This document shows, one piece after another, positions 53,329 to 56,946 of a stretch of DNA of 64,000 nucleotides (its first letter is position 1; every line of letters starts with the position of its first letter). The stretch covers positions 1 through 64,000 of the forward strand of contig JADGNZ010000029.1 of assembly GCA_017883205.1 (NCBI GenBank), given 5' to 3'. Under the pieces are notes generated by a model. That model did not search any database and was not told where the DNA came from. It worked only from the letters and a program-made list of their open reading frames with translations. Both the position numbers and the translations under genes were made by a program. The DNA comes from Thermoanaerobaculia bacterium (GTDB lineage Bacteria; Acidobacteriota; Thermoanaerobaculia; Gp7-AA8).

Positions 53329-53952
53329 TTACTCCAACCGTGCACTCCGGATGTAATCGAGCCGCGGGAACTCGCGATTGAGCCAGGCGTTGCCGCCGCC
53401 GAAGAGCGCGTCCTGATGGCCGGCGCGCATTCCGCCGCCGGATGTTTCGCCATAGCCGGAGTAGAGGCGGTCGGCGACGTCCATGCCGGAGATGACGGCG
53501 CCGAAGGGCGCGAAGCCCTGGGCATTAAACGGACGGTTGTCGGCGAGGTTGATGAAGATCTGCGTCGCGCGGGTGTTCGCGGTCGTGAAGGCATAGGCGA
53601 CGGCGCCGCGCGTATTCGACTGCTGCGGAGGATCATCGGGCAGCGTCGCCAGGTGCCAGGCTTGGGCAACCCGAGGATCGCCGGGGATGCCGAATTGGAC
53701 GAAGACGCCCTGGCGCACGCGGAAGAATCGCTGGCCATCGAAGAAGTGGTGCATTACGAGATTGTAAAAACGGTCCGCGCCGAGCGGTGCCCAACTGCGA
53801 TGCACTTCGACGACGAAGTCGCCCTGGCTCGTGGCAAAGCGGACTCGAAAGTGCTCGGGTGCGCGTGCGTTCAAGCGGGGATCGTGCGGATCAAGCAGCA
53901 GGGGAGCGCAGGCGGCGAGCAGGTAGGTGAGGATGTAGATGCAACGGCGCAT
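53329..53952 (-). CDS. exported cyclophilin-type peptidylprolyl isomerase
   Basis: 207 residues with a short signal and possible lipobox (ILTYLLAAC, Cys16). The cyclophilin core reads FATSQGDFVVEV, RFYNLVMHHFFDGQRFFRVRQGVFVQFG, TQIFINLADN and FGAVISGMDVAD. The catalytic Arg of FFRV is present; the usual His before it (FHR) is Phe. It catalyses prolyl cis-trans change in envelope proteins. ATG 53952 is chosen over 53961 because GGAGA lies at the right distance. Confidence 0.88.
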   Translation of the reverse strand: MRRCIYILTYLLAACAPLLLDPHDPRLNARAPEHFRVRFATSQGDFVVEVHRSWAPLGADRFYNLVMHHFFDGQRFFRVRQGVFVQFGIPGDPRVAQAWHLATLPDDPPQQSNTRGAVAYAFTTANTRATQIFINLADNRPFNAQGFAPFGAVISGMDVADRLYSGYGETSGGGMRAGHQDALFGGGNAWLNREFPRLDYIRSARLE

Positions 53953-53997
53953 GGCTGTCATTCTCCGATATCCGGCGACAGTGGAGAGTGGAGAGAC

Positions 53998-54057
53998 TAG
54001 AGATCAGAGATCAGGATCCTGCTACCGACCTCTGATCGCTGATTCTCTGATCTCTCG
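53998..54057. repeat. GATCAGAGATCAGG palindrome (family D)
   Basis: AGAGATCAGAGATCAGGA faces CTCTGATCGCTGATTCTCTG. It separates the divergent cyclophilin gene from the aro/trp promoter. Confidence 0.7.
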
Positions 54058-54061
54058 CATA

Positions 54062-54090
54062 TTGACACCTTCCTTCGTCGCCGTTACTCT
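54062..54090 (+). promoter_or_regulatory. promoter of the aroD-aroE/trpE operon
   Basis: Perfect -35 TTGACA (54062-54067), 17-nt spacer, -10 TACTCT (54085-54090). The predicted start of transcription is near 54097, only a few bases before the leader peptide ATG. Confidence 0.7.
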
Positions 54091-54099
54091 CGCACTTCG

Positions 54100-54141
54100 A
54101 TGAACGCGTCTCGCACCTCGTGGTGGTTCCTCCGCAGCTAG
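54100..54141 (+). CDS. Trp leader peptide MNASRTSWWFLRS
   Basis: Thirteen codons and a TAG. Two adjacent Trp codons (TGG at 54121-54126) are followed by Phe. Single Trp codons are rare and tandem ones rarer, so this is a strong attenuation signal upstream of trpE. It has no ribosome site, but the start of transcription predicted from TTGACA/TACTCT lies about 3 nt before its ATG, so it would be translated from a leaderless mRNA, as described for trpL in rhizobia and streptomycetes. Confidence 0.72.
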   Translation: MNASRTSWWFLRS

Positions 54142-54180
54142 CGGGCAGCGCGCATGCGCCCCGCGTTTGGGAAGGGGCGC
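54141..54180 (+). promoter_or_regulatory. mutually exclusive attenuator stems
   Basis: GCGGG (54141-54145) can pair with CCCGC (54160-54164), while GCGCCCC (54156-54162) can pair with GGGGCGC (54174-54180); both cannot form together. A ribosome stalled at the Trp codons leaves the first free. How this connects to the terminator-like stem below is not resolved. Confidence 0.5.
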
Positions 54181-54202
54181 GAAAAATCTGACGGTTTCAG
54201 CC

Positions 54203-54244
54203 AACCTCTTCTCGAAAGAAAAATCCGAGTAGAGGTTTTGTTTG
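54203..54244 (+). terminator. attenuator terminator-like stem before aroD-aroE
   Basis: AACCTCT, a T-T mismatch, CTCG, an 11-nt loop, CGAG, T, AGAGGTT, then TTGTTTG: a stem of 7 + 4 bp followed by a T-rich run directly before the ATG at 54245. The right arm contains AGAGG, the ribosome site, so translation could be hidden too. Confidence 0.6.
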
Positions 54245-55528
54245 ATGAAGCTGGCCGTTACGATCTTCGAAGAAACGCCCGAGCGCGCGATTGACGCGAT
54301 CCGTGCGTTGGACAGCGATCACGACGCGATCGAGCTACGCGCCGATGCGTTCGGTGGGCGAGTGGTCGATTGGCCGGCCGTGCGCGCGGCGACGACCAGG
54401 CCGGTCATCGCCACGAATCGCGGCCGAGGACATGTCGATGTGGATGCCACGCTTGCCGCCGGAATCGACTTCATGGATGTCGAGTGGGGCGGCGTGATTC
54501 CGAACGTTCATCGCGACCGGATCGTCCTTTCGCATCACGATTACGACGGGATGCCGGATGTCGAGTCGCTCGTGCCGGCGATGCGCACCGCGGGTTGCGC
54601 GCAGGTGAAGGTGGCTGTGACGCCGCGGGATTTCGCCGATAACGCGCGGCTGCTCGCTTTGCTCGACGGGAGATCCGATCTCACAGTCATCGGGATGGGC
54701 GGCCGCGGGCTGTACGCGCGCATCCTTGCGCCGTTCTTCGGATCGGCAATGCAGTTCGTCAGCGTCGATGAGGCGCATTCGGCAGCTCCCGGGCAATTGA
54801 CGCTCGATCGGGCCCTGGCGATTTACGGACCTCATCGCCAGACCCTCCGGGCCGATACGATCTTCGCCATCACCGGCAATCCCGCGGCACACAGCGGATC
54901 ACCGGCCATTCACAACACTATCTTTCGCGAGCGCGGCGTCGCTGCGGCGTATGCGATCTTCGAAACGGAGAACTTCCTCGACATTGCGGGGCCGTTCGCC
55001 CGAGGAGAGCGATTTGCGCCGAAGGGGCTGTCGGTTACCGCGCCATTCAAGGAAGAAGCACTGGCGTTCGCGCAGCGCACTGGCGCGGAGATCGCGCCGA
55101 ACGCGCTCGAAGCGGGCGCGGTCAATACGCTTGTTCGCATCGGCGGTCGGATCGTCGCTGACAACACGGACGTCGACGGCTTCGCCGCGCTCATTAGCAA
55201 AGTGAACGCGCGCAGCGCTGCGGTGATCGGCGCCGGCGGCACCGCGCGTGCGGCGCTCGTTTCCCTTCGCCGGGCCGGAATCGCCGCGACCGTCTTCAAC
55301 CGGACAACGGGCAAGCTCGACGCTCGGCCGCTCGACGCGTTGTCGTCGTGGCGCGGCGATCTCATCATCAACACGTTGCCGGGAAACGTTGCCATCGCGC
55401 TGCCGCCTGCCGGTACCATCATCGAAGCGGCTTATGGCGGCGAATCGCGAGCAACCTTCACCGGACTCGATCTTCTTCGCGCACAGGCTGTGCGTCAAAA
55501 CGAGCTCTTTCTCGAGGCATGCAAATGA
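54245..55528 (+). CDS. fused 3-dehydroquinate dehydratase (type I) / shikimate dehydrogenase
   Basis: 427 residues catalysing two consecutive shikimate steps. AroD part (~1-205): catalytic His in LSHHDYDGMP and Schiff-base Lys in AQVKVAVTP. AroE part (~210-427): AITGNPAAHSGSPAIHN, catalytic Lys in GLSVTAPFKEEAL, Asp in NTDVDGFAAL, NADP loop GAGGTARAAL and the final LRAQAVRQNELF. The fusion is known from plants, Chlamydia and some bacteria. ATG 54245 follows an attenuator. The stop overlaps the trpE ATG by 4 nt. Confidence 0.94.
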   Translation: MKLAVTIFEETPERAIDAIRALDSDHDAIELRADAFGGRVVDWPAVRAATTRPVIATNRGRGHVDVDATLAAGIDFMDVEWGGVIPNVHRDRIVLSHHDYDGMPDVESLVPAMRTAGCAQVKVAVTPRDFADNARLLALLDGRSDLTVIGMGGRGLYARILAPFFGSAMQFVSVDEAHSAAPGQLTLDRALAIYGPHRQTLRADTIFAITGNPAAHSGSPAIHNTIFRERGVAAAYAIFETENFLDIAGPFARGERFAPKGLSVTAPFKEEALAFAQRTGAEIAPNALEAGAVNTLVRIGGRIVADNTDVDGFAALISKVNARSAAVIGAGGTARAALVSLRRAGIAATVFNRTTGKLDARPLDALSSWRGDLIINTLPGNVAIALPPAGTIIEAAYGGESRATFTGLDLLRAQAVRQNELFLEACK

Positions 55529-56946
55529 ATCTGGATGATCTTCGCAAGGATTACGACATCGTTCCCGTCGCGCGTGAGCTGAGCGCCGACGCCATTACGC
55601 CGGTAGCAGCCTTCGCGGCGCTCTCCGGCGATGGCGAGGCGTTTCTGTTCGAGAGCGTCGAGCGGGGAGCGAACGTCGGCCGTTACTCGTTCGTCGGCTT
55701 CGACCGCCGGCGCAGTCTTCGTTTCGACGCCACCACACCCGAATCTGCCCGTGTTCTCGATGAAGAGCTGCGGCCGCTACGCGTCTATCGCGAAGAGGAC
55801 TTCCCCCCGTTCTTCGGCGGCGCGGTCGGGTTCTTCGGCTACGGTGTGGCCGGCTGGACCGAGCGCATTCCCGACACGCATCCGAACGACAGCGGCATCC
55901 CCGATGCGCGGCTGCTCTTCTTCGACAACGTCGTCGTCTTCGATCACGTGAAGCAGCGCCTCCACGTCATCGCCAATCTCTTCACGTCCGATGCGCATGC
56001 GTCGTTCGAAGAGGCCAATGCTCGTCTCGACCGCGCCATCGAGCGGTTGCGCGCCGCGCGTGTCGAGTTGCTCGCATTCCCCGAGCACATCGCCGACGTC
56101 GCCTTCACGCCGAACATCCCGCGTCCCGATTTCGAAGGGGTGGTGCGCGCGGCGAAGGAAGAGATCACAGCCGGCGAAGTTTTTCAGATCGTCCTGTCGC
56201 AGAGCTGGAGCGCGGAGTTTCCGGAATCGGAGGCGTTGACGCTGTATCGCGTGCTGCGCTCGGTCAATCCGTCGCCGTACATGTTCCTGTTGCGCACGCC
56301 GGAGTGCACGCTCGTCGGCGCGTCGCCGGAAATGCTCGTGCGCGTCGACGGCACGCGAGCGGAGACGCGCCCGATCGCCGGAACGCGCCCGCGCGGCGCG
56401 ACCGAGGAGGAGGATGCGGAGTTGGAGCGCGCGCTCGTGGCCGATCCGAAAGAGCAGGCCGAACACCTCATGCTCGTCGACCTCGGCCGCAACGACCTCG
56501 GGCGTGTCTGCGTCAGCGGATCGGTCTCGGTCTCCGACTTCTGCCACATCGAGCGCTACAGCCACGTCATGCACCTCGTCACGAACGTCGAGGGAACGCT
56601 ACGCGACGACCGCAGTCCCGTCGATCTCTTCCTCTCCTGCTTCCCGGCCGGCACGCTCACCGGCGCGCCGAAGATCCGGGCCATGGAGCTCATCGACGCG
56701 CACGAGACCACGCGCCGTGGCCCGTACGGCGGTGCCGTCGCCTACTTCGGATTCAGCGGCAACATGGATAGCTGTATCACCATCCGCACGATCGTCCTCG
56801 CCAACGGCAAAGCATCGGTGCAAGCCGGCGCCGGCATCGTCTACGACTCCGATCCCGCGCACGAGTACGAGGAAACGATGAGCAAGTCCGCCGCGCTGAA
56901 GCTGGCCATCAGGATCGCGACGACCGTTTTGAACAAGCCAACGTAG
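55525..56946 (+). CDS. trpE: anthranilate synthase component I
   Basis: 473 residues. Chorismate-binding fold with the N-terminal Trp feedback motif as LFESVERG (LLES class), then PIAGTRPRG, DLGRNDLGRVC, the signature FPAGTLTGAPKIRAME and AGAGIVYDSDP. First committed step of tryptophan synthesis from chorismate. ATG 55525 overlaps the aroD-aroE stop (ATGA) with GAGG upstream. No trpG or other trp genes follow; the glutaminase subunit must come from elsewhere. Confidence 0.94.
   Translation: MNLDDLRKDYDIVPVARELSADAITPVAAFAALSGDGEAFLFESVERGANVGRYSFVGFDRRRSLRFDATTPESARVLDEELRPLRVYREEDFPPFFGGAVGFFGYGVAGWTERIPDTHPNDSGIPDARLLFFDNVVVFDHVKQRLHVIANLFTSDAHASFEEANARLDRAIERLRAARVELLAFPEHIADVAFTPNIPRPDFEGVVRAAKEEITAGEVFQIVLSQSWSAEFPESEALTLYRVLRSVNPSPYMFLLRTPECTLVGASPEMLVRVDGTRAETRPIAGTRPRGATEEEDAELERALVADPKEQAEHLMLVDLGRNDLGRVCVSGSVSVSDFCHIERYSHVMHLVTNVEGTLRDDRSPVDLFLSCFPAGTLTGAPKIRAMELIDAHETTRRGPYGGAVAYFGFSGNMDSCITIRTIVLANGKASVQAGAGIVYDSDPAHEYEETMSKSAALKLAIRIATTVLNKPT

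Follow-up and report, generated by a model that had tools for sequence, protein, structure and literature searches.

The window (the whole 64-kb stretch of DNA analysed) was mapped to contig C54 of a 6.4-Mb genome (G000). The leader described here fills the intergenic gap between a divergent cyclophilin gene and aroDE-trpE (Table 1). By profile matches, the aroDE product was assigned as a type I dehydroquinase joined to a shikimate dehydrogenase, and its nearest named matches were MAGs labelled Acidobacteriota and Thermoanaerobaculia (73–74% identity). A fused shikimate enzyme (aroD-aroE) as first gene, with trpE in the operon, had been read from the window in an earlier note and was confirmed by matches to PF01487, PF08501 and TIGR00564. 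Immediately 5' of the promoter lies an inverted repeat (GAGATCAGAGATCAGGATC...CTGATCGCTGATTCTCTGATCTCTC, window positions 53990–54057), of which about 30 similar copies were seen elsewhere in the genome; palindromes of short words of a similar kind were seen in the leader regions of G010, G013 and G017.

The same note had described a TTGACA box, a 17-nt spacer, TACTCT, an ATG 9 nt on and a 13-codon peptide with tandem TGG, all of which were found where it had placed them. A single instance of this promoter-to-ATG pattern was found in the window, where 0.01 would be expected. Across related leaders of all kinds, a TTGAC(N) box stands 15–18 nt 5' of the -10 hexamer in 27 of 32, and the distance from -10 to start codon is mostly 6–12 nt, without a Shine-Dalgarno (SD) sequence. 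The promoter spacing and the missing SD fit leaderless transcripts, with a transcription start that would follow from the spacing. A start 3' of the peptide, which the note had named as a refutation, finds no sign in this conserved promoter position. Strict single-sequence scanners run on the window copy called neither a promoter nor a terminator; its -10 is weak and its terminator loop long.

Table 1. Features of the aroDE-trpE leader and its surroundings in the window, and of the two related leaders in the same genome (G000).
Feature	Position	Strand	Remarks
Cyclophilin gene	53329–53961	-	divergent neighbour of the leader
-35 hexamer TTGACA	54062–54067	+	sequence; TTGAC(N) box in related leaders
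-10 hexamer TACTCT	54085–54090	+	17-nt spacer to -35; 9 nt before leader ATG
Leader peptide ORF, probably leaderless, MNASRTSWWFLRS*	54100–54141	+	13 codons; stop TAG at 54139–54141
Tandem Trp codons TGG TGG (sensor)	54121–54126	+	WW or WWW kept in 10 genomes
S1 (GCGGGCAGCGC)	54141–54151	+	pairs with S2; would be covered by a ribosome at the stop codon
S2 (GCGCCCCGC)	54156–54164	+	pairs with S1 or S3
S3 (GGGAAGGGGCGC)	54169–54180	+	pairs with S2 (anti-antiterminator) or S4 (antiterminator)
S4, terminator 5' arm (CCTCTTCTCG)	54205–54214	+	alignment of relatives, window fold
S5, terminator 3' arm, with TTTTGTTT	54226–54243	+	starts with CGAGTAGAGG (54226–54235)
aroDE, fused 3-dehydroquinate dehydratase / shikimate dehydrogenase	54245–55528	+	PF01487 4e-27, PF08501 4e-16; NCBIfam aroE/aroD
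trpE, anthranilate synthase component I	55519–56946	+	TIGR00564 1.7e-154
Tyr/Phe leader MTRTAQRFAYYYGYFT (L152)	C64:19867–19968 (listed C64:19879); L203:8333–8470		before chorismate mutase and DAHP synthase
His leader MSTNFVQQHHHHHI (L158)	C28:69497–69598		before hisZ-hisG-hisD-hisC-hisH-hisAF

In the window sequence, a hairpin directly 3' of the leader stop codon is followed by a second G-rich arm and then by S4 and S5, and TTTTGTTTG runs into the aroDE ATG at 54245. Alternative GC stems and a terminator-like stem touching that ATG were thus present as had been claimed. Their logic differs from the simple E. coli trp scheme, being a chain of five segments that begins at the stop codon. Folded alone, the window sequence was not significant (z -0.93), and the case was therefore tested on relatives.

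Nineteen genomes were compared, 18 from the family and a single one from the order (Acidobacteriota, Thermoanaerobaculia-type). Retention of the WW peptide 5' of the operon in relatives had been proposed as a check, and a WW or WWW leader was found before aroDE in 10 of the 19 (G000, G002, G003, G005, G006, G010, G012, G014, G017 and G018), covering two families. The peptides differ around the Trp run (e.g., MNAPRNWWWSRRS, MNASLRLWWWPSSE, MNAPRNSWWYRRA and MARPVPFTAHGWWNEL); in all ten the last Trp codon lies 13–16 nt from the next G run. TrpE follows aroDE in G000 and G010. In G012, S1 and S2 are lost and S3 stands directly behind the stop codon, a shorter chain that keeps the same sign of control. 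Covariance-model search detected no Trp copy in the other nine genomes, G001 among them, and the missing leader in G001 is apparently a loss. In this genome, of the same genus as the window's, aroDE stands closely behind recO (C28, L172) with no Trp leader.

A first covariance model (R1) was built from eight Trp leaders, the window copy included, and scored the aroDE leaders of its members at E values of 2e-12 to 4e-19. It also matched leaders with Tyr/Phe or His peptides elsewhere in the Trp-leader genomes. A second model (R2) was drawn from the stop codon onward with the codon run left out and the window copy in its training set; it recovered the window copy at E 1.7e-11 and gave three clear copies in G000, namely the aroDE-trpE leader, one on C64 and one on C28. 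The catalogue came to 32 leaders (10 Trp, 12 Tyr/Phe and 10 His), and G000, G002, G010 and G012 each have all three kinds. In 32 of 32 the codon run ends at the scaffold and suits the operon product: Trp before aroDE, Tyr/Phe before chorismate mutase/DAHP synthase, and His before hisZ and his genes. Seven of the leaders were found by R2 outside its training set, and each carries a His or Tyr/Phe run. It is very improbable that the stems are a constitutive terminator or processing hairpins beside an incidental WW peptide: terminators with similar CCTCTTCC/GGAAGAGG stems do score weakly elsewhere in these genomes, but product-matched codon runs at the scaffold in every catalogued leader, seven of them outside model training, argue against that explanation.

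The pairing scheme was examined in a structure alignment of 24 scaffolds. Paired cells made up 97.6% for S2:S3 and 95.8% for S4:S5, and these two stems together held five pairs with changes on both sides (four of them in S4:S5), a count reached in 0 of 500 shuffles. S3:S4 was paired in 93.2% of cells, with covariation not clearly above shuffles (58 of 500 as high). Stem covariation in relatives, the other check that had been suggested, was accordingly clear for the first two stems and weak for the third. Every member in which S2 was recognised folds the S1:S2 hairpin, which starts no more than a few bases from the stop codon.

Ribosome positions were followed in an equilibrium model. In most transcripts ending at S4, a ribosome front before the stop codon gives S1:S2 and S3:S4, and a front beyond +3 to +9 brings most members to S2:S3. 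When the front was advanced from the stop codon as far as +12, S4 pairing changed by a mean of 0.45, versus 0.05 in shuffled spacers, a shift that supports S3:S4 as an antiterminator. S2:S3 is favoured almost regardless of ribosome position in several of the His copies and in two of the Tyr/Phe ones. For S4 pairing in the window copy, the equilibrium shift was only 0.06, owing to the length of its S3:S4. While a ribosome occupies the stop codon, S3:S4 is favoured in this copy at equilibrium until S5 has been made, and in the full transcript S2:S3 and S4:S5 prevail (0.82–1.00); the window switch would thus rely on S2:S3 forming first, and the order of folding matters. In the fold of the untranslated window RNA a leader segment pairs with S3, a candidate default-off element.

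We put at roughly 85% the probability that this leader acts as a ribosome-mediated transcription attenuator of aroDE-trpE, with charged tRNA-Trp as its signal. The sequence, its conservation, the gene context and the pairing potential were observed, and the transcription start, the stalling, and the direction and size of the response are inferred. Such control by a Trp leader peptide was the central claim of the earlier note, and it is supported by the conserved WW/WWW runs, the matching operon and the alternative pairs. The RNA would start at or a few bases from the leader ATG, as the promoter spacing suggests, and the leader would be translated from a leaderless mRNA. When charged tRNA-Trp is short, the ribosome would stall on TGG TGG and leave S1, about 14–16 nt 3', free to pair with S2; S3 would then capture S4 as the antiterminator, no terminator would form, and RNA polymerase would enter aroDE-trpE. 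With ample Trp, the ribosome would go on to the stop codon and mask S1; S2:S3 and S4:S5 would form, and transcription would stop just 5' of the aroDE start.

The terminator arm may also act on translation. The nearest SD-like sequence to aroDE is an AGAGG inside S5, which likely doubles as its SD. In 23 of 32 loci the gene start lies 7–14 nt 3' of S5, with the AGAGG or similar of S5 as the closest SD-like sequence, and several loci with a more distant gene start show another one. The terminator state therefore probably hides the ribosome site and blocks aroDE translation, judging from this arrangement, and the antiterminator would free the site as well. Control that is mainly translational, with S4:S5 hiding AGAGG and termination minor, would suit this gene-start distance, as well as the interrupted U tract (TTTTGTTT) and long terminator loop of the window copy. 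We regard it as improbable: a T run of at least 4 follows S5 in nearly all copies, and the nine loci without so close a gene start (in some, a repeat or another SD-like sequence intervenes) retain the T-tailed hairpin.

From the S2–S5 letters that they have in common, the three leaders of G000 are taken to be paralogous attenuators that share one RNA scaffold from the stop codon on and differ in their codon runs. We lean, by a small margin of confidence, to a history in which a leaderless scaffold was duplicated within Acidobacteriota and re-aimed at Trp, Tyr/Phe or His by the codon run alone, with mixed Trp and His runs in operons that carry both aroDE and his genes, and with termination coupled to hiding of the ribosome site. 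If the copies were instead convergent, the same constraints would have produced similar stems; some 90 nt of G+C-rich stems are too short for a reliable tree, and in other families of the class a different stem sequence (CCGGGAC) serves the same logic. Yet S2 (GCGCCCC), S3 (GAAGGGGCGC) and S4 (CCTCTTCC) are near-identical across the Trp, Tyr/Phe and His copies, which exceeds what pairing needs, and convergence is judged unlikely.

Weaker matches in other families retain the architecture. His leaders precede hisZ-hisG at L175 and L196 and a hisZ-like frame at L177. A Trp leader precedes aroDE-hisD-hisAF-hisZ in G018 (L169), and a mixed WW+HHH leader precedes aroDE-hisZ-hisD-aminotransferase in G061 (L170). 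The joint presence of Trp and His codons in leaders of such combined aroDE-his operons may hint at how the scaffold spread. HHH leaders were also found before aroDE in G069 (L179) and G070 (L178). As separate observations, the leader before aroDE in G145 (L171) mixes Trp and His codons, and in G070 no his gene lies right behind aroDE on the same strand. In another Acidobacteriota family, candidate Cys leaders with terminators and CCC peptides stand before ATP sulfurylase (L191 and L183, in G286 and G264); their peptides end in GCCCPICP* and ACCCRTLRRPVSGR*. Several model matches were set aside: in other families, L186, L188 and L190 (weak matches, plain terminators on individual reading), L184 in G300 (a SAM riboswitch, RF00162, E 2.7e-18, with a CCTCTTCG-type terminator), L182 (a SAM-riboswitch-like leader resembling L184), and weak matches in G007 and G008 (no codon run).

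By profile search, trpD and trpB were placed on C64; the frames around these two look like a trpGDCFBA cluster, in which trpG, C, F and A are named from position and partial sequence only. A Trp leader was sought before trpGDCFBA and none was found. The Tyr/Phe leader starts at the end of this cluster, its ATG overlapping the stop codon of the last gene; the overlap is an ATGA (L203:8333–8336) with the gene in the trpA position. Read-through RNA from the trp cluster could therefore translate the Tyr/Phe leader by coupling, and a local promoter could give a leaderless one. From where the leaders stand, Trp attenuation would act on aroDE and trpE, and DAHP synthase and chorismate mutase would come under Tyr/Phe attenuation. 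The suggestion that Trp throttles the common pathway is borne out only in part: the entry enzyme, DAHP synthase, is under the separate Tyr/Phe leader, and no leader was found for trpGDCFBA itself.

Acidobacteriota are a soil phylum with few cultured members, and most known cases of leader-peptide attenuation come from Proteobacteria and Actinobacteria. With the present leaders the phylum gains an assigned attenuator set for Trp, Tyr/Phe, His and possibly Cys. If true, exchangeable codon runs on a single scaffold would show amino-acid sensors arising by duplication, and the scaffold would be a compact design by which RNA reads ribosome position at a stop codon. At gathering score, neither the window nor the related leaders matched Rfam Trp_leader, other Rfam leaders or T-box, the SAM riboswitch of L184 being the only match. 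In the open literature no description of leader-peptide attenuation in Acidobacteria/Acidobacteriota was found; subscription papers (e.g., the 2010 Lopatovskaya comparative survey) lay outside this scope, and an earlier prediction is possible.

Like E. coli trpL, the window leader combines a short peptide carrying tandem Trp codons with a proposed stall-dependent choice between antiterminator and terminator. It differs in its leader without an SD, its five segments, aroDE as the first gene, and a sensing segment (S1) at and after the stop codon, not in the coding part. The his attenuator of E. coli and Salmonella is a chain of segments A–F, and here too there are more than four alternative segments, S1–S5 acting like B–F; no clear segment A is established, however, the sensor is Trp, and the G012 chain is shortened. 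In Sinorhizobium meliloti, trpL is leaderless with its RNA starting at the ATG, and of three trp operons only trpE(G) is attenuated (PMC7298713). The likeness to trpL/rnTrpL would lie in the leaderless start and also in trpE, which here stands separate from trpGDCFBA, where no leader turned up; the present case lies in another phylum, with aroDE in the operon and a scaffold common to Tyr/Phe and His copies. Trp attenuators occur in Actinobacteria (PMC1262725), and bacilli have similar His leaders before hisZ and hisS* (PMC2965389); a 2010 survey recorded almost no predicted Acidobacteria attenuator with an assigned function (PMC2965389). Those actinobacterial and Bacillus leaders are likewise leader peptides outside Proteobacteria, but theirs share one amino acid, whereas here one scaffold serves three signals. 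Attenuation of this class is textbook knowledge, and what is new is a scaffold shared between leaders with swapped codons.
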